In this document: one piece after another, positions 10,942 through 33,480 of the stretch
Numbering within the stretch: the stretch's first letter is position 1
How the letters are laid out: each line of letters begins with the position of its first letter
Origin: Atopobium sp. oral taxon 416
GTDB lineage: Bacteria > Actinomycetota > Coriobacteriia > Coriobacteriales > Atopobiaceae
Length of the DNA: 64,000 nt
Direction of reading: 5' to 3'
Assembly: GCF_018128285.1 (NCBI RefSeq)
Contig: NZ_CP072380.1
Span: forward strand, 992,001-1,056,000
The notes under the pieces: model-generated
Told to the model about the DNA's origin: nothing
The model's database searches: none
What the model saw: only the letters and a program-made list of their open reading frames with translations
Program-made: the position numbers and the translations under genes

Positions 10942-11423
10942 GTTCAGTCTCTATTAGGGCGTCCAGGATTTGGGGCACAGTTCAATAACCGGGAGAGCCT
11001 CCTTGCTTAGCTTTGGGTGTTTGCTTTAGCAGGCCTGTTCGATGAAGTGCTTCAGGGTATAGATGCCCAAGCCTATCTGTGTTGAGGTGATGATGCAGAC
11101 TATCTCGTTTACACCGAATTCCTCAGCTGGACCTGCTGTTTCTGGTGGGCACGCTTGTCTGTCTTCGTGAGGGCAATGATGAAGGGAAGGCCAGCCCCTT
11201 TCAGGTAGTCGATCATCTGGAGATCGAGTGCCTGGGCATCGTGCCTGATGTCCACAAGTGCAATCACAAGATTGTGGCTGCGTTCGCTCGTGAAGTAAGC
11301 ATCGATTAAATCAGCCCAACGCTGCTTCTCTGTCTGGGAACGCTGCGCAAAGCCATAGCCGGGAAGACCCACGAAGTAGATGTCGTCAGCCTCGGCAAGG
11401 ACGCCCCTATGGTGTGTCAAGAG

Positions 11424-12307: not shown

Positions 12308-12614
12308 GCAAGGCCTCCATCCGTCATGGGGCATCTTATCGGCAGGCCAGACACAACACTGACAGAAGCGCTAGAAGCAGGAGAGTCCGGCCTGCTGGCA
12401 GTGCCCATGCTCCTGTGAAGTCATGACAGGCCTTCGGGATGCCCACGGCAGGGCGCGACAGGGCAGCTGCAGGCCGGCCTGCACGACGGCGGTTGGTGTA
12501 TGGGCCAGCGTCCTGTTACAAGCCAATGTTCCCAAGGCGTATGCCCTACAGCTAACTCTGCAGGAAATCCCCTGTCGAATCAACTGTGGTGTCATTATCA
12601 GTGTTGGTGTAAGC
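12308..12614 (-). ncRNA. Predicted IS110 bridge-RNA region (copy A)
   Basis: IS110-family elements express a structured bridge RNA from the non-coding end upstream of the recombinase; one loop pairs with the target and another with the donor. Here about 307 bp lie between the element end and the transposase start and have no coding function I recognise. The same block is kept in fragment C and partly in copy B. The RNA itself is inferred from position, not from a fold I could compute. Confidence 0.35.
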
Positions 12615-12800
12615 GGTCTTGCCGGGCTTGCTTGAGACCTTGATAAGAGACTTCCTGTTGAAGAGCCTGTTGATGAGGGAAGATTTGCCGACATTGGAGT
12701 GGCCGACGAAGGAGGCCTCGGGAGCCTTCGGCTGCGGCAGCTGCTCGACCGTGCCATACGAGGCAAGGTAGTGGACTTGTTCATAGCGAATTCCCATGGA

Positions 12801-26103: not shown

Positions 26104-28545
26104 TCATGCCAGGGTCCCAGAGTAGCCGTGTGGTAGTGCCTGAGATTCGTCGGGATTCGGTCCCGGCCACGAGCGGATCCGCTCGAGCATTCCATCCACG
26201 TCCAAGACGCCGAGGACAAAGCCTTTACGAATCAGCTCTTCCGGGACAAACTCATCGTACTTGTCAAAGTAGGGAACTTCGCCCGGATAGAGCAGATCTA
26301 TCGGATCGAGTGGCTTTGCAGCTTCTTCCTTCACGATTTTGAAGAACTCATAGCCGTCCACCTTCATCGTAAACTGCAGGAAGTAGGGACGGGAGGAGTC
26401 GAGGCCTTTGAGGCCTAAGCGCTCTGCACATTTGATCTTGAGGAAACGCTCTAGTGCCAAGAAGGCATAGGTACCGAGCCAGGGAAAGAGACAGTAGGTC
26501 CTGCCACCCACGTTGATCAGTGGTTGGTCAGTGATGTGGGCGTTGCGGCACACGTGGCGCGCCTGTGCCAGTCTAAAGCGGGCATTTCTTCTAAGGTAGG
26601 GGTAGACCGTATCCTCCTGCAACACCTTTTTCATGTGTTCCAGGATATGGGTGTTGATGTCCCCTGCGACCATACCGAAATAGGCGGGCACTTTGCCCTT
26701 GACTTTAGTGCATTCAATCAGGTGGCGCTTGTAGTCGATCTCCTCGATCACCCATACGGCACCGGCAATTGCGATACGTTCTCCGACCGGCGGTGGCTGC
26801 ACGATCGTACCTAACTCCTGCGATTCACTGCGGACCGTGAATTCTTCATCGGTTGAAAAGACTGCATAGAAGCGGAAGTCATTGATCTGCCGCTCTCCGG
26901 CAAGACCCACAATAAGGCCACCTTCAGGAGTGCGGTGGATATGCTCGATCTCAATTAGATGCCGCAATAATACCTTGTAATCTTCCTGGCTCACCCGGTG
27001 GAAGGGGGTCAGAGTCAGTACCTGTCGTGCCAGCTCAGAAGGAGCCATCTCACCAGTGCTTGCCAGTGTTGCCATCGTCTGATGGTAAAGCAAAGAGTAG
27101 GGAATCCGGTTGAAGCGCGGAGGCTCTACCCAGCGCTCCTCGATATAGAGCTGTACCAGAGAGATTCCCTGCAACAGTTTCCAGGGTACGGTCTCAGGGA
27201 GTAAGGCTCTGGCCTCTGGCTGCTCCTCGCGCATCACAAACCACATCTCAGAGGGGTTACCCCGTCTGCCGGTTCTACCCATACGCTGTAGGAAGCTAGA
27301 GACCGTAAAGGGGGCATCGATTTGGAAAGCGCGCTCGAGGCGGCCGATATCGATACCAAGCTCGAGGGTGGCGGTCGTCACCGTGGTGAGCTTGCTGTCC
27401 TCGTCGCGCATCATATCTTCAGCGGACTCACGGAAGCTCGCCGAGAGGTTGCCGTGGTGGATGAGGAAGCGGTCCGGTTCCCCGTTTGCCTCAGCGTATT
27501 GGCGCAGGGATGTGGTGACTGCCTCGCACTCCTCACGGGAGTTACAGAAGACAAGGCACTTGTGTCCCCGAGTGTGCTCAAAGATGTAGCCGATGCCAGG
27601 ATCCGCAAAGACCGGGGCGGTATCTGAGGCGGGTTCCGGGGTATCATCTCCTTTGTCGGGAGATTGTGCCTGTGGTGTAGCGTCAGTGACGTCTGTGACA
27701 TCTTCTGTGCGCTGATCGCGTGGTGGGATATGCTCTGAGCGTGGATGCTCGTTGTAGGGCATCTCGTAGGCGACGTCATTCTCAACGGTTTGAGTGGAAC
27801 CACCGAGTCCATCTTCACCGCGCTCGGGTGCCTGAGGACCTGAGATGTAGAAGTGCTCCATGGAGAGACGCCAGCGCTCTTTAGGGGCCTCAAACTTAGG
27901 GATCGCACACTTACGGCCACTGCCCCAGGAGAGGTAGACACCGGTTTCTTCAGGTTCACCGATCGTCGCAGAAAGGCCGATACGGCGGGGATTGACGTGC
28001 GCGAGTCGGCTGATACGCTGGATACAGCAGAGCGTCTGGTCACCGCGGTCCCCTCTGAGCAGCGAGTGTACCTCGTCGATCACCACATAGCGCAGATCTG
28101 CAAAGAGGCGAGGTATCGCACTGTGGCGGTGCAGCAGCATAGCCTCCAGGGATTCCGGTGTGATCTGCAGGATCCCCGAGGGATGCTTTAGCATCTTGTG
28201 CTTATGGGACTGTGAGACATCCCCGTGCCAGTGCCACACCGGGATATTCCCCTCGTTGCACAGGGGTTCCAAGCGCAAGAATTGGTCATTGATCAGAGCC
28301 TTTAAGGGCCCGATATAGATGCAGCCCACGCTCGTGGGTGGGTCCTCATAGAACTGGGTCAGGATCGGGAAAAAGGCCGCCTCAGTCTTTCCTGAGGCGG
28401 TCGAGGCGGTAAGCAGGAGGTTGTCGTCGGTGTTGAAGATCACATCAGCCGCAGCGACCTGGACGGCGCGTAAATCTTTCCAGTTGTGGGAATAGATGAA
28501 GTCCTGAACAAAGGGGGCATAACGGTCAAAAGTATCCATCGGCAT
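26104..28545 (-). CDS. Lhr/BrxHI-type DEVH superfamily 2 helicase
   Basis: ATP-dependent helicase of 813 residues. RecA domain 1 has motif I TASTASGKT (about 46-53), Ib-like QITPESLEA, motif II DEVH (157-160) and motif III SAT (192-194). RecA domain 2 has LVFCNSREECE, TATLELGIDIG (motif V) and QRMGRTGRRG (motif VI). About 80 residues of acidic, Pro/Thr/Asp-rich low complexity (236-315) are inserted between the two RecA domains, which is unusual. The C-terminal half resembles the accessory region of Lhr-like proteins. It is last in a three-gene operon, two bases after the ATPase gene. BrxHI of BREX loci is the closest functional analogue by context; its in vivo substrate is unknown. Confidence 0.87.
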   Translation of the reverse strand: MPMDTFDRYAPFVQDFIYSHNWKDLRAVQVAAADVIFNTDDNLLLTASTASGKTEAAFFPILTQFYEDPPTSVGCIYIGPLKALINDQFLRLEPLCNEGNIPVWHWHGDVSQSHKHKMLKHPSGILQITPESLEAMLLHRHSAIPRLFADLRYVVIDEVHSLLRGDRGDQTLCCIQRISRLAHVNPRRIGLSATIGEPEETGVYLSWGSGRKCAIPKFEAPKERWRLSMEHFYISGPQAPERGEDGLGGSTQTVENDVAYEMPYNEHPRSEHIPPRDQRTEDVTDVTDATPQAQSPDKGDDTPEPASDTAPVFADPGIGYIFEHTRGHKCLVFCNSREECEAVTTSLRQYAEANGEPDRFLIHHGNLSASFRESAEDMMRDEDSKLTTVTTATLELGIDIGRLERAFQIDAPFTVSSFLQRMGRTGRRGNPSEMWFVMREEQPEARALLPETVPWKLLQGISLVQLYIEERWVEPPRFNRIPYSLLYHQTMATLASTGEMAPSELARQVLTLTPFHRVSQEDYKVLLRHLIEIEHIHRTPEGGLIVGLAGERQINDFRFYAVFSTDEEFTVRSESQELGTIVQPPPVGERIAIAGAVWVIEEIDYKRHLIECTKVKGKVPAYFGMVAGDINTHILEHMKKVLQEDTVYPYLRRNARFRLAQARHVCRNAHITDQPLINVGGRTYCLFPWLGTYAFLALERFLKIKCAERLGLKGLDSSRPYFLQFTMKVDGYEFFKIVKEEAAKPLDPIDLLYPGEVPYFDKYDEFVPEELIRKGFVLGVLDVDGMLERIRSWPGPNPDESQALPHGYSGTLA

Positions 28546-28547
28546 CC

Positions 28548-29954
28548 CTAGATATCAAATTCGGCAAACTCATCGGTGCCGTTGTCACCTGTCTGAGCTG
28601 TAGTAGAGCTCGTGGCATTTGTCTTCTTGGAACGTAGGGCTGCCTGCTCCTCTACGGGCGTCTCGACGGGCTTCTTAAAGGTGTCGCCCTGCAGCAGGTC
28701 CTCGATCTTCATCGTTGGATTCTGGTAGAGGATATCGAGCATCTCAATAAAGTCACGGATAACCTCACGCGGGGTCAGGTGTGAATCTGCACCCACACGA
28801 TCAAACTCCGCAGATAAGAAGGCCACTAACTCCTGTTGAGTGATGGTGCGCTTATAGCCAAAGAGTTCGGCATGGATATCGGCTAGCTTTTCGATCAGGA
28901 CGAGGAGCTCCTCGTGGGTTAAAGGCTCCAAGTGGATGACCGGGGCGAGCATATCTGCCAAGCCTTCCTGGGCAAAGCGACCCTGGGTAAGGCGGCTTCT
29001 CAGTGCCTCGTAGGAGTAGAGGCCCCGGCGTCTGTCTTCGATAGTCTGTGGGGTGCCACCCATAATGATACCGAGATAGTGGGCCTTGCCCTGCAGGGTG
29101 TCGTTGTACATCGTGAGGATCTTCTCGTAGTTGTACTGACGGCTGATTGCATTGGGGATCTTGTACAGGTTGACCAGCTCATCGATCAGGATAATGAGGC
29201 CATTGTAGCCTGCGGCATGGAAGAACGTGGCTAGAACCTTCAGGTATTCGTACCAATCTGCATCATCGATAATGATGTTTACCCCGAGCTCTTGGCGAGC
29301 TCCGGTCTTGGTGCGGTACTCACCGCGGAACCACTTGGTGACATTGGCTTTGGTCTCGGCGTCGCCCTCGAGGCTGGCGTGCCAGTACATCGTAAGCAGA
29401 CGGGCAAAGTCATAGCCATGCACGAGCTCCTGTACCTGTGAGGTGATCTTCATGATCTGGCGCTCCATGGCATCTGTGAAGGTAGGATCGTCTGGCTTGA
29501 TGCCGTCCTCTACGGTGACCTTTGTTTGGATACCGGAAACCCAGCGGTCCAGAACTAAGTTCAAAGCGCCACCGTCCGGGCGGGTCTTGGTGGAGAGGTT
29601 ACGGATCAACTCACGATAGGTAGCCAGTCCCTGTCCATTAGTGCCTTGGAAACGGCGCTCGGGAGAGAGGTCTGCATCGCAGACCACAAAGTTGTTGCCC
29701 ATTGCGTGGTTACGGATGGTCTGCAGTAAGAAGGATTTACCGGAACCGTAGCGGCCCACAAGGAAACGGAAGCTTGCGCCGCCGTCTTGTACCAAGCTCA
29801 GGTCATGGAGCAGTGCAGCAATCTCACGCTCACGGCCGACCGTGATGTAGGGGAGACCGATTCTGGGAACAACGCCACCTTTGAGAGAGTTGATAATGAC
29901 AGAAGCAATGCGCTTAGGGACGCGCGCGGGCTGATTTGACTGTTGTTGGCTCAT
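28548..29954 (-). CDS. BrxC/BrxD-type (DUF2791) P-loop ATPase
   Basis: 468-residue AAA-like ATPase of the BREX ATP-binding family. N-terminal KRIASVIINSLKGGVVPRIGLPYITVGREREIAAL is a typical start; the Walker A is GRYGSGKS (67-74) and the Walker B lies in GLIILIDELVNLYKI, followed by a sensor-like MGGTPQTIED and the segment RLTQGRFAQEGLADMLAP. The C-terminal tail is Ser/Thr-rich and ends DEFAEFDI. It overlaps the TerB gene by four bases (ATGA) and is followed by the helicase after two bases, so the three are translated together. In BREX this ATPase partners with the helicase; no PglX or PglZ is present nearby. Confidence 0.87.
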   Translation of the reverse strand: MSQQQSNQPARVPKRIASVIINSLKGGVVPRIGLPYITVGREREIAALLHDLSLVQDGGASFRFLVGRYGSGKSFLLQTIRNHAMGNNFVVCDADLSPERRFQGTNGQGLATYRELIRNLSTKTRPDGGALNLVLDRWVSGIQTKVTVEDGIKPDDPTFTDAMERQIMKITSQVQELVHGYDFARLLTMYWHASLEGDAETKANVTKWFRGEYRTKTGARQELGVNIIIDDADWYEYLKVLATFFHAAGYNGLIILIDELVNLYKIPNAISRQYNYEKILTMYNDTLQGKAHYLGIIMGGTPQTIEDRRRGLYSYEALRSRLTQGRFAQEGLADMLAPVIHLEPLTHEELLVLIEKLADIHAELFGYKRTITQQELVAFLSAEFDRVGADSHLTPREVIRDFIEMLDILYQNPTMKIEDLLQGDTFKKPVETPVEEQAALRSKKTNATSSTTAQTGDNGTDEFAEFDI

Positions 29955-32038
29955 AGGTTCAAGGCCTTTCTTATATCATCCGTGTAGTCTTCAATAAGGC
30001 AGGGCTGGTCATTCTCGTCCATCTCAAGTGAGACGTCACCTGTTATATCAAAGAGTTTTTCGTTGATCGAGTCCACCAACATATCCGGTGTGGTGGGGGT
30101 GTGTTTAAGGATATCCTGAATCGGTTTGCCTGCAAGGAGTGCACGCAACAGCGAGAACTCAGTGTCGTCCAGGCTGTAGGGGTGTCCCTCATCTGTTTGT
30201 GTTTCAGTACTCTCCTGAGCGACCGGTGTACTCGCAGGTACTGCTTGCGATTTATTCTCGGGGGCTGTGGACGTAACGGTGACAACAGGCGCTACCGGCT
30301 CCGGTTCATCTTGGCGCTCTTCATCGACCAAAAGTGCATCGCGGGTAACCACAGAGGCATCCCTGATTGCATGGAGTTGGGAGAGATCGACGGTGAAGCG
30401 CCGCTCCTCCTTCTCTTTGCGGATTCGTTCTGCTTCTGCCTGCTTGACTTTAAAGTTGTCGATTGCCGTGACAATGAACTTTGTCTCGTATCTTGCCACC
30501 TTCTTCTGTGGCTTCAAGGGATGCTTGAAATTCCAGGCCTCGCGCATGTGGCGGTCAATCTCGCGATAGATCTTTCCCAGGGCTGGATTCGTGTGGTCAT
30601 ACCCGAAGGGGAACGTCTCACTGAAGTTATTGGCTGCATAGGGGAATGCCTCAGGGTTAGGTTTGTGTTCAAGAGTGATCCCATCACCTAAGTCATAGAG
30701 GATTTGGTCTTTGCCAAAATCTACCCTGACCGGTGTGGTGTCAAAGGCAGGCATCCAGATATTACCCCGATACCCTACAAGGAAGTTCACAAAGTTAACC
30801 TGGCGCCGTTTATGGAAGTGCTCCACAAAGTCACGGAATACTTCCGCGGTGATTGCGATGCGTTCTTTCTCGTGTTTTTTGAAGAAGGCGGAACGCTTGG
30901 GGTCTACCGAAGAGAAGATATCTAAAGCCTCAACCACATCCTTGTTGGAAACCGGATCAGTTCCATACTTGGGATCCGGGATCTCCCATTTCTTGTGCTG
31001 GGAAAAGATATAGTTCTGTGCCTTACGCAGGATGAAGGCAGCATGGGCGTATCTGCGATGATAGGGGCCTACCAGGAGCTTGGGATTATCGCCGGAGAAG
31101 ATACGGTAATCCTGAATGATCGTTTCGAGAGCTTCACGAACGAAGTTGTCTTCCTGATCCTCGGGATAACTATCCAACAGGCACTCAAGCTCGTCTAAAG
31201 TCTCCTTGGGGTTGTGGAGAATGTCGCCGAGTGCCAAAAGTTCATAGGCGTAGAGCAACCCGGTGAAACCGGGTGCTGTGTCGACTCTCCTATGTCTCCA
31301 CTGCGTTCTCCAGTAGAAGTACGCTCGTAGCTCTTTGTCGGTCAGATCGGTATACATCGGGCGGTAGAGTGTCTTCCACTTGACAGAGAACTTTGTATTC
31401 TCTTCGTAGTCCTTTGCGAGCTTGGTTTCCTTCATAAAGAGATCGGTGTGTTGGCGAAAGCCGTAGTAGGTAAAGCTGTCTTTGCGGTCCTCATCTTCGA
31501 GCCTGCGCATCTCCCTGAGCGTTTTTGGGAGGTTAGTGTGGGGGTTTCTTTTGGAGTGGCTGGTAATTCGTCTGGTGCCGACATTTGCCCACCTGCCGGG
31601 GCAGTTGTTCCAGGACCCGCCATAGACATTCTCGCCGAATTCATCCTCGGTAAGCGTGTCGTCAGAGTTGAGAAGGCCGTTAGCGTCCTCATCGGTAGAC
31701 GGATTCGAGTGAGAATAGAGACGGGCAAGGAGCAGTTTTCTTCTCAGCTCATTGTCATCGATCAGATATGCTCGTCCATCACTGGTCCTGAACCCCACAG
31801 CATACTCATCGTCGTCGACGTATCTCGATCTGCGGTGATCTTCGCGATGATCGATGTGCGCCGGTGAGGACGTGCCATGCTGTTGGTTATAGCGTTTTGC
31901 ATAGTCAGAACCGGTCTGGATCAGAGGCTCATCGCAGTATGTCCCCTGCTCCTCAATGATATCTCTGATTAACTCTCGCATTACGGCTTGAAGCTGTGCT
32001 TTTGCAGCGGGATCAGGCTGGTGAGGTTGGTGGATCAA
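29951..32038 (-). CDS. TerB-N/TerB-C domain protein
   Basis: Cytosolic protein of 695 residues from the TTG at 32038 (AAGGGA nine bases upstream); in-frame GTGs at 32086 and 32068 are alternatives. The middle carries a TerB-N-like pattern (LYRPMYTDLTDKELRAYFYWRTQ, then GLLYAYELLALGD), the region usually found in tellurite-resistance-related systems. The C-terminal 75 residues fit TerB-C (FSLLRALLAGK, then SINEKLFDITGD and LIEDYTDDIRKAL), after a Pro/Thr-rich linker. It is the first gene of the operon. Known Ter-domain proteins are linked by comparative genomics with stress and DNA processing; the biochemical role of this one is not established. Confidence 0.75.
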   Translation of the reverse strand: MIHQPHQPDPAAKAQLQAVMRELIRDIIEEQGTYCDEPLIQTGSDYAKRYNQQHGTSSPAHIDHREDHRRSRYVDDDEYAVGFRTSDGRAYLIDDNELRRKLLLARLYSHSNPSTDEDANGLLNSDDTLTEDEFGENVYGGSWNNCPGRWANVGTRRITSHSKRNPHTNLPKTLREMRRLEDEDRKDSFTYYGFRQHTDLFMKETKLAKDYEENTKFSVKWKTLYRPMYTDLTDKELRAYFYWRTQWRHRRVDTAPGFTGLLYAYELLALGDILHNPKETLDELECLLDSYPEDQEDNFVREALETIIQDYRIFSGDNPKLLVGPYHRRYAHAAFILRKAQNYIFSQHKKWEIPDPKYGTDPVSNKDVVEALDIFSSVDPKRSAFFKKHEKERIAITAEVFRDFVEHFHKRRQVNFVNFLVGYRGNIWMPAFDTTPVRVDFGKDQILYDLGDGITLEHKPNPEAFPYAANNFSETFPFGYDHTNPALGKIYREIDRHMREAWNFKHPLKPQKKVARYETKFIVTAIDNFKVKQAEAERIRKEKEERRFTVDLSQLHAIRDASVVTRDALLVDEERQDEPEPVAPVVTVTSTAPENKSQAVPASTPVAQESTETQTDEGHPYSLDDTEFSLLRALLAGKPIQDILKHTPTTPDMLVDSINEKLFDITGDVSLEMDENDQPCLIEDYTDDIRKALNL

Positions 32039-32249
32039 AATAATTGTTCCCTTTTTTCTAGTAGTCACACAAAGATAATTATACACGCGTTAACTACATA
32101 AGCGCGAACGTGTGTATGTCCATTAAAAGCTATAGAATTAGCCGGCCGCCGTGCTGTGCGGTGCGTAACGTTGTGGGGATCTGTCCTGTCACTGAGCCTT
32201 CATATTGTGACCTGTGTCAATATTTCGGACACAAAAACTTGAGATCTTT

Positions 32250-33480
32250 AAGCTGCATTGGATGGTGATATCTGGTCCTCTTCTGATATAGGTTTCGTTC
32301 TTTCAAAGAAAGCATCTACTACCTTCGCTGGAATTTTGTTGTTGATCGTTGAGTGGGGACGTTTTCTGTTGTAGTAGCCCTCAATGAATTCAGCTAGCGC
32401 ATGTATGGCATCCTTTCTTGTTGCAAAGCCTTCTCGCTAGTACATCTCGCCTTTAAGAGTGGAAAGAAAGACCTCTCTACGGCACTATCGTGGTAGTTAC
32501 CCCAGCGGCTGCAGGAGAGCCTCACATCGTTTATCTTAAGCCCACAGAGCAGACAAACCTAAGAGGTGTATTGGACACCTTTGTCTGAATGAAAGGCTGC
32601 ATTTTCTGCCACATATCCTCGACACCTAGCCACTTGCAGTGTATCTAGCACACTATCGGCTCCCGTTCTATCCAACAGCGATCAAGCCTACCACCATGTA
32701 GGTGTTTAAGTCTCACACAGCAAGAAAGATAGAACCAGCCCTTTTCTGTGAAGAGATAGGTAATATCTCCAACAAGCTTATAGGTGGAGTCAGGGCTTTA
32801 TGAGGTCACAATGTATAAGATCAGGCTTTGGTTTGGCATATCTGTCAGGGACAGTGGTTCTCTTCTGATCTGTAAAGGGAGTGAGCCCTTTATTCTTAAG
32901 CTCGCGCATGCATTTTCCTACCCTGTAGAGGGTAGTGTTGGAAAACTCATCAGCTAGATAGCAGTGGGTGTAAACCTAGCCCCAAAACCTCTGTCAGACT
33001 CTGCCCACACCCGCCAGATAGCCTCTGTAAGCTCACTGCACCCGTTTTCTGGTGCTCCTAAAGAACACCCATGAATAAAAGCTTGAGTGTAATGCCTTAA
33101 GGAGTAAAGCCTGTATCTTGATCGGGAAGTTTTCCTTCTCCTTAAGCATCTGCTTGTAACAATCTATTGCACTTAAGATCCTTTGCGAAGAAGGCCGTGG
33201 CTGCCTTTAAGAAGGCATGTTCCATCTCAAGCTCTTTGCTGCGCTTGGCATAAGGCTTTTGAGCTTTTCCTCTTTAGCCTCGCTGCGCTTAAGCAGCTGA
33301 TAGCCTATCTCTGTGCTCTTTTACCCAGCGGATCTGTGTTTTGGGATTAAGCCCTAACTCGGTGGCGAGATGGGCTATCGACTTGCCAGTGGAGATAGCG
33401 TAGTCAGCTGTTTTCAGGCGCTACTCATCGCTGTATTTGGTAGCAAGATTGTTTATTACCTGTCGTCCTTTCGGTCGGCT
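32250..33480 (-). pseudogene. IS3-family element, nearly full length but decayed
   Basis: The C-terminus is clear on the minus strand: GFATRKDAIHALAEFIEGYYN, then RKRPHSTINNKIPAKVVDAFFER, stop near 32252. The OrfA start region near 33470 reads KYSDE then RLKTADYAISTGKSIAHLATELG. Between them the OrfB core is full of stops. About 1.2 kb, the normal size of an IS3 element, so it is a single old copy. The 210 bp between it and the TerB gene hold no gene. Confidence 0.7.

Follow-up and report, generated by a model that had tools for sequence, protein, structure and literature searches.

Operon structure and surroundings

The window (a stretch of 64,000 nucleotides of contig NZ_CP072380.1 from Atopobium sp. 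oral taxon 416) carries three co-directional genes on its minus strand, all with intact open reading frames and transcribed in the order sngA, sngB, sngC:

sngA, 29951..32038, minus strand: TerB_N/TerB_C protein of 695 amino acids (aa), read from a TTG start at 32038 (open reading frame, Pfam, PADLOC, structure model)
sngB, 28548..29954, minus strand: BrxC/D-family ATPase of 468 aa with an ATG start (Pfam, PADLOC, motifs)
sngC, 26104..28545, minus strand: Lhr/BrxHI-like SF2 helicase of 813 aa with an ATG start (Pfam, PADLOC, motifs, structure model)

The first two genes overlap by four bases (29951-29954), and a gap of two bases (28546-28547) separates the second from the third; both the trio and these junctions, as described in an initial annotation of the same DNA, are borne out by the open reading frames and Pfam domains. 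The TTG start of sngA is preceded by AAGGGA, whose end lies 9 bases upstream, and an alternative GTG start at 32086 would yield a protein of 711 aa.

The genes downstream of the operon encode a member of the bile-acid symporter family and a glutathione peroxidase, and upstream of it lies a broken transposase-like stretch, followed by phosphotransferase-system genes. The broken stretch (32248-33420, minus strand) consists of short frames interrupted by stops and frameshifts, which we take to be an IS3-type transposase together with the small helix-turn-helix protein that partners it. Our scan of the neighborhood covers 14 different frames (10 scanned with Pfam, 10 with PADLOC, and 6 with both; the two genes adjoining sngC were scanned with Pfam only). 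Among these 14 frames, no defense, methylase or nuclease family is matched at E 0.001, which agrees with the earlier remark that no nuclease, methylase or toxin lies next to the operon. Nor do the 10 frames given to PADLOC match any of its defense models, and we therefore place this copy outside any obvious defense island.

Identification of the operon as Shango

All three proteins find their best PADLOC matches among the components of Shango: SngA at 6e-52 (the weakest of the three, at 176 bits), SngB at 6e-193 and SngC at 1e-269. SngB scores 640 bits on the SngB model versus 171 on BrxD (a margin of 469 bits), and SngC scores 895 bits on the SngC model versus 400 on BrxHI (a margin of 495 bits). 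The Pfam assignments comprise TerB_N (3.8e-11) and TerB_C (1.5e-20) in SngA, BrxC_BrxD (8e-169; presumably the family formerly called DUF2791) in SngB, and DEAD (1.9e-26) and Helicase_C (5e-18) in SngC. The catalytic motifs of both enzymes are intact: SngB has a Walker A motif (GRYGSGKS at 67) and a Walker B motif (IILIDE at 254), and SngC has motifs I, II, III and VI (GKT at 52, DEVH at 157, SAT at 192 and QRMGRTGR at 420).

These assignments extend to relatives of the operon (collected as described below), from which we aligned hand-picked, mostly complete proteins, namely, 56 of 77 SngA relatives (alignment A2) and 33 of 68 SngC relatives (alignment A3). With the window's own protein added to each set, the PADLOC SngA model matches 57 of 57 proteins and the SngC model 34 of 34, with the same 34 also matching BrxHI more weakly; TerB_N and TerB_C are both present in all 57 SngA proteins. 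The Pfam TerB domain that a review table names for Shango (PF05099; PMC10952713) has no match in this genome or, at E 0.01, in any of the 57 SngA proteins, though all 57 match the SngA model.

As described in PMC10250203, Shango combines an ATPase and a DEAD/DEAH helicase with a TerB-like protein. Here, SngA, SngB and SngC stand together on the same strand and in the same order, with a TerB-like SngA and with SngB and SngC that fall in the Shango clade. Judged from sequence, the three-gene operon is thus almost certainly Shango, an anti-phage system already described in other bacteria. The profile-HMM comparison that the initial annotation had proposed, run with Pfam, PADLOC and NCBIfam, identifies its trio as SngA, SngB and SngC; as such, its observation is confirmed and its proposed novelty is not, and the claim of a new system falls away. 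Its description of a self-contained anti-phage module agrees with the Shango experiments that PMC10250203 reports, but it overlooked that the system already has a name.

In those experiments, the operon of Pseudomonas aeruginosa PA14, expressed in strain PAO1, lowers plating 10- to 100-fold for many but not all phages, and PMC10250203 also cites an approximately 10-fold inhibition of two phages by E. coli Shango. The PA14 and E. coli systems have the same three components as the operon in the window, their likeness to the window's proteins being judged through the PADLOC models; the window's sngB had no match when its DNA was searched against E. coli genomes. Whereas Shango has been tested in gammaproteobacteria, the host here is an actinobacterium (Coriobacteriales), which the operon probably protects from phage. 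A 2026 review (PMC12926258) still gives the mechanism of Shango as unknown, and a literature search, with preprints outside its scope, found no paper working it out among the matches listed. Shango is unmentioned among the matches listed for a search of the literature combining it with Coriobacteriia names.

Relation to BREX and Hachiman

The homologous ATPase and helicase of type 2 BREX, BrxD and BrxHI, are cousins of SngB and SngC, and the initial annotation had regarded the operon as a module with the TerB protein in place of PglX/PglZ. PMC12839542 describes these two BREX proteins as a dyad with tight linkage, in which BrxD is an ORC-Cdc6 AAA+ protein that possibly loads or activates BrxHI. 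The operon in the window differs from type 2 BREX in having a TerB_N/TerB_C partner instead, and its proteins score far lower on the Brx models than on the Sng models (by the 469 and 495 bits given above). On the NCBIfam model BREX_BrxD, SngB reaches 172.7 bits, below the equivalog cut-off of 350. The genome holds a single BrxC/D-family ATPase and, across its whole length, no match to PglZ (PF08665); neither a PglX/BrxX methyltransferase nor any other BREX gene occurs among the neighbors scanned with Pfam and PADLOC. Elsewhere in the family, PglZ is found in 22 of 140 genomes, 18 of which also have SngB, and in all 18 the two lie on different contigs (draft contigs, such that nearness across contig ends is possible). 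A BREX locus with the trio as its tail, which would have spoken against the earlier proposal, is therefore not seen in these genomes either. With Sng scores far above Brx scores, the BREX_BrxD cut-off missed and no PglZ in the genome, we reject a BREX tail, and a degraded or minimal BREX with the TerB protein standing in for PglX/PglZ retains next to no probability.

The likeness to Hachiman (HamAB) is one of working only, in that a DNA helicase would sense or act within an anti-phage complex. Hachiman combines a sensor helicase with an effector nuclease, and SngC, BrxHI, DruE and DpdJ have been grouped as a potentially distinct clade of SF2 helicases (both from PMC12278908). SngC matches HamB weakly (5e-12), and HamA is found neither among the best 25 of 56 SngC matches nor among the neighbors given to PADLOC.

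Recurrence of the trio

Scanning named genomes with an alignment of SngB returned at least 571 relatives. We retained the best 80, which derive from Coriobacteriia, Lachnospiraceae, Ruminococcus and other Oscillospiraceae, lactobacilli, Selenomonas, and others. Within the stretches fetched around these 80 SngB loci, SngA is present in 77 and SngC in 68. Because these loci were fetched separately, the association of the trio is not a matter of chance, and the three families do co-occur, a point that the initial annotation had left to a survey of other genomes. Ten of the 15 partner misses fall at contig ends: the 3 loci without SngA each have less than 300 bases of contig upstream, and 7 of the 12 without SngC have less than 1 kb downstream. 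The others (L101, L107, L168, L174 and L178) have 4.6 to 6.0 kb downstream, yet SngC is absent there. Of 51 further loci, all from genomes of the window's family or order, 42 carry the complete trio, 4 have only SngC, 3 have SngB and SngC, and 2 have SngA and SngB. Some missing partners lie elsewhere in the genome (SngB in G402, G404 and G429; SngC in G319 and G380).

The spacing between sngB and sngC is variable. They are more than 1 kb apart in 13 of the 45 same-order loci that hold both and on different contigs in at least three genomes (G319, G380 and G404), which argues that tight coexpression of SngC is not always needed. In G110:C2, sngC follows sngB at a distance of about 6 kb. The sngB-sngC gap is thus a frequent place of insertion in relatives. 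Ten inserted proteins, scanned from 6 of the 13 loci, come from unrelated genes: an FeFe-hydrogenase-like protein, three ABC transporter ATPases, an FtsX-like protein, a weakly matched substrate-binding protein, a peroxide-stress YaaA, an amino-acid permease, a methyltransferase-like protein and a DUF5104 protein. The inserts scanned share no effector, and on this basis we reject a missing effector between sngB and sngC. Four loci of genus g9 (L068, L070, L073 and L075) have a similar gene group at this place, which in L070, the only one of the four with its domains scanned, encodes FeFe-hydrogenase-like, substrate-binding-like and ABC transporter proteins.

Several conventions bear on these counts. 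The two locus collections overlap in organisms (L091 and L172 are identical), and gene starts in relatives, assigned by script, are approximate. In a rumen genome, sngC occupies two overlapping frames (L100:7396-9733), a possible frameshift or assembly error, and is counted as present. Five loci are left out of the counts, the divergence analysis and the tree: L097 to L099, which have no SngB or SngC relative above the cut-off, and L067 and L081, in which both proteins are distant. The latter two (L067:8328-12975 and L081:8256-11675) hold ATPase-helicase pairs whose ATPases share 39% and 23% identity, respectively, with the window's SngB; our script detects no SngA-like gene beside them, and they are perhaps BrxD/BrxHI-type pairs in other settings.

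Distribution and inheritance within the family

SngB occurs in 106 of the 140 genomes of the window's family (at E 1e-3), including 80 of the 101 of good quality, and in 19 of its 35 genera; it is absent from 34 genomes and 16 genera, some of these genomes being incomplete. As a rough yardstick of prevalence, type I HsdR is found in 53 of the 140 genomes at E 1e-40, a stricter cut-off than that used for SngB, and genus g260 shows little difference between the two, with HsdR listed for 14 genomes and SngB for 15. Presence in most of the relatives examined is mildly unusual, and it supplies natural hosts for testing the system in its native setting. Compared with the tested PA14 and E. coli systems, the window's system has no defense match among its scanned neighbors and is widely kept and genus tracking in its family. 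A location outside defense islands is in itself not new, because a defensome paper (PMC10924106) reports restriction-modification systems colocalizing with Shango outside islands; Shango is also listed among rumen defense systems in PMC13356809.

We built a tree from joined SngB and SngC sequences (quick search, simple model; 112 rows, of which 67 lack a genus label), which excludes loci lacking either protein. Relatives named in it (Olsenella, Atopobium and Collinsella) point to the Coriobacteriales, and to an Atopobiaceae-like position, for the window's organism. Its 24 genus labels can be explained by 23 changes, which is as few as possible (shuffles give 37.3, and 0 of 200 is as low); therefore, the SngB-SngC pair has mostly been inherited together within genera. 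Twelve of the 14 genus groups listed form one side of a branch (with a support of only 6 in the case of g9), and g250 and g265 need two changes. Above the genus level, the window's family (f1) fails to form a single clade: genera g3, g250 and g251 fall with family f3, one locus of g261 (L053) groups with family f79, and a locus of another family (L096) sits inside f1. In addition, L053 and the rows of g272 adjoin Bacillota rows. Because f1 is not one clade, transfer above the genus level is likely. Carriage by phages is rejected, with no SngB match in 50,697 phage records, as is carriage by plasmids, with SngC in 2 of 72,556 plasmid records (at E 1e-60), both of them large Paenibacillus plasmids at 40 to 44% identity.

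Divergence and structure of SngA

The divergence analysis uses 96 loci that have all three proteins (from 110 with SngA, 128 with SngB and 116 with SngC). Mean SngA identity is 65% where SngB stands at 92% and SngC at 89% (27 pairs), 48% where SngB stands at 82% (178 pairs), and 29% where SngB stands at 67% (1,758 pairs); the pairs are not independent of one another. SngA identity declines smoothly with SngB identity, and the three pairs with at least 95% SngB identity have at least 85% SngA identity. As such, there is no sign of SngA cassettes being swapped between similar operons, in a comparison of low power. Change spans the whole protein and is greatest in the linker before the last domain, in the middle and, at larger distances, in the N-terminal part; the TerB_N core and the C-terminal parts have changed least. 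Since it diverges far faster than its partners across the 96 trios, SngA is the first candidate for phage recognition and may be the phage-recognizing part, which makes its divergence a usable lead on the mechanism of Shango. The fast change could reflect relaxed constraint rather than an arms race.

An extra Pfam YjbR match in 8 of the 57 SngA proteins suggests a changeable input part; one of the 57 has a match to a type I specificity subunit. In a profile search against solved sequences, SngA matches PSPTO_3016 (1e-9, profile positions 10-111), the sole match below E 0.001. We take PSPTO_3016 to be a YjbR-type protein, in which case this match would fit the YjbR matches in SngA. Nuclease families are absent from the window's SngA and from the five Pfam families matched by the 57 proteins. 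Six aspartates are nearly invariant (D213, D495, D656, D664, D668 and D684), and E266 is invariant.

The SngA model is mostly helical, with a mean pLDDT of 77.6 and 229 of 695 residues below pLDDT 70. Its confident C-terminal unit (three helices, two strands and a helix) looks like a winged helix in the model, and the winged-helix proteins that Foldseek matches to it fall short of significance (E 3.3 and above). The SngA fold has no match in the PDB with E up to 0.001.

Candidate mechanism and alternatives

Among solved structures, the SngC model (mean pLDDT 73.1) is best matched by mycobacterial Lhr (5v9x, Foldseek 6e-21), in an alignment that spans 897 columns including gaps and most of the length of SngC, with a TM score of 0.53 by query length. 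Lhr has a role in DNA repair. After the helicase core, the C-terminal half of the SngC model comprises helical, beta-rich and alpha+beta parts. This order of elements in the model is compatible with the published description of BrxHI, whose domains are a helicase core, a winged helix, a HAS-type beta-barrel and an Lhr-type C-terminal domain (PMC12839542). No solved sequence matches SngB at E 0.01.

We consider the operon best explained as a Shango system with a sensor (SngA), a loader or activator (SngB) and a translocase (SngC), to which we assign a probability of roughly 60%; the particular roles given to each protein are more tentative and somewhat less likely to hold than to fail. In this scheme, SngA would be a variable sensor or adaptor that recognizes an infection cue, such as a protein of the phage or a replication structure that is abnormal, an idea prompted by its rapid divergence. 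SngA, its gene overlapping sngB by four bases, would then license the SngB-SngC machine. SngB, a predicted AAA+ ATPase (BrxD-like, of the ORC/Cdc6 type), would assemble on DNA and load or activate SngC, the loading idea being carried over from what PMC12839542 proposes for BrxD and BrxHI. SngC, as an Lhr/Ski2-like DNA translocase, would translocate on and remodel phage DNA, thereby blocking its replication. Because no nuclease domain is recognized in any of the three proteins, the SngC helicase is the likeliest effector to predict from sequence, perhaps together with host nucleases. Counting against this scheme are the loci in which sngB and sngC lie apart and the chance that SngA changes fast through relaxed constraint.

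The main rival to this sensor-loader-translocase scheme also accepts the operon as Shango but has SngA carry an unrecognized nuclease or toxic activity, which a DNA sensor formed by SngB and SngC would release, as HamB does for HamA. Hachiman provides the precedent of a sensor helicase paired with an effector nuclease (PMC12278908), and the conserved acidic residues of SngA (D213, D495, D656, D664, D668, D684 and E266) could serve such an activity. A catalytic domain might be hidden in SngA, since its fold has no PDB match and 229 of its 695 residues lie below pLDDT 70. Against this, Pfam gives TerB_N and TerB_C, and no nuclease family, both in the window's SngA and in the 57-protein set, and we regard a hidden effector as fairly unlikely. 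Less probable again is that the complex serves genome maintenance in this order (for example, by clearing abnormal replication structures), with phage defense being secondary. Several observations would suit a maintenance role, namely, the presence of SngB in 106 of 140 family genomes, the minimum of 23 changes for 24 genus labels in the SngB-SngC tree, the lack of a defense match among the scanned neighbors, the resemblance of SngC to Lhr, and two genomes (G319 and G380) that keep SngA and SngB together with SngC on another contig. However, SngB is found in none of 16 of the 35 family genera (some genomes being incomplete), which marks it as dispensable; the tree departs from the family above the genus level, which suggests transfers; the rapid divergence of SngA is not what a housekeeping subunit would show; and laboratory Shango blocks phages (PMC10250203).

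A broader view would have Shango in the Coriobacteriales as a chromosomal complex that is widely fixed, tracks genus and lies away from obvious defense islands, with an SngB/SngC engine conserved across phyla and an SngA receptor that diverges several-fold faster. Instead of a mobile defense cassette, it would be a resident machine for DNA surveillance whose receptor is tuned fast. The odds of this view are lowered because the family is not one clade in the tree, and we hold it to be doubtful. What is added to the knowledge of Shango is modest: the system is widespread in this family, and SngA diverges strongly.

Away from the operon, two short frames of the window (11109-11420 and 12552-12797, both on the minus strand), about 1.1 kb apart, resemble two halves of one gene, presumably a split EngB/YsxC-type GTPase.
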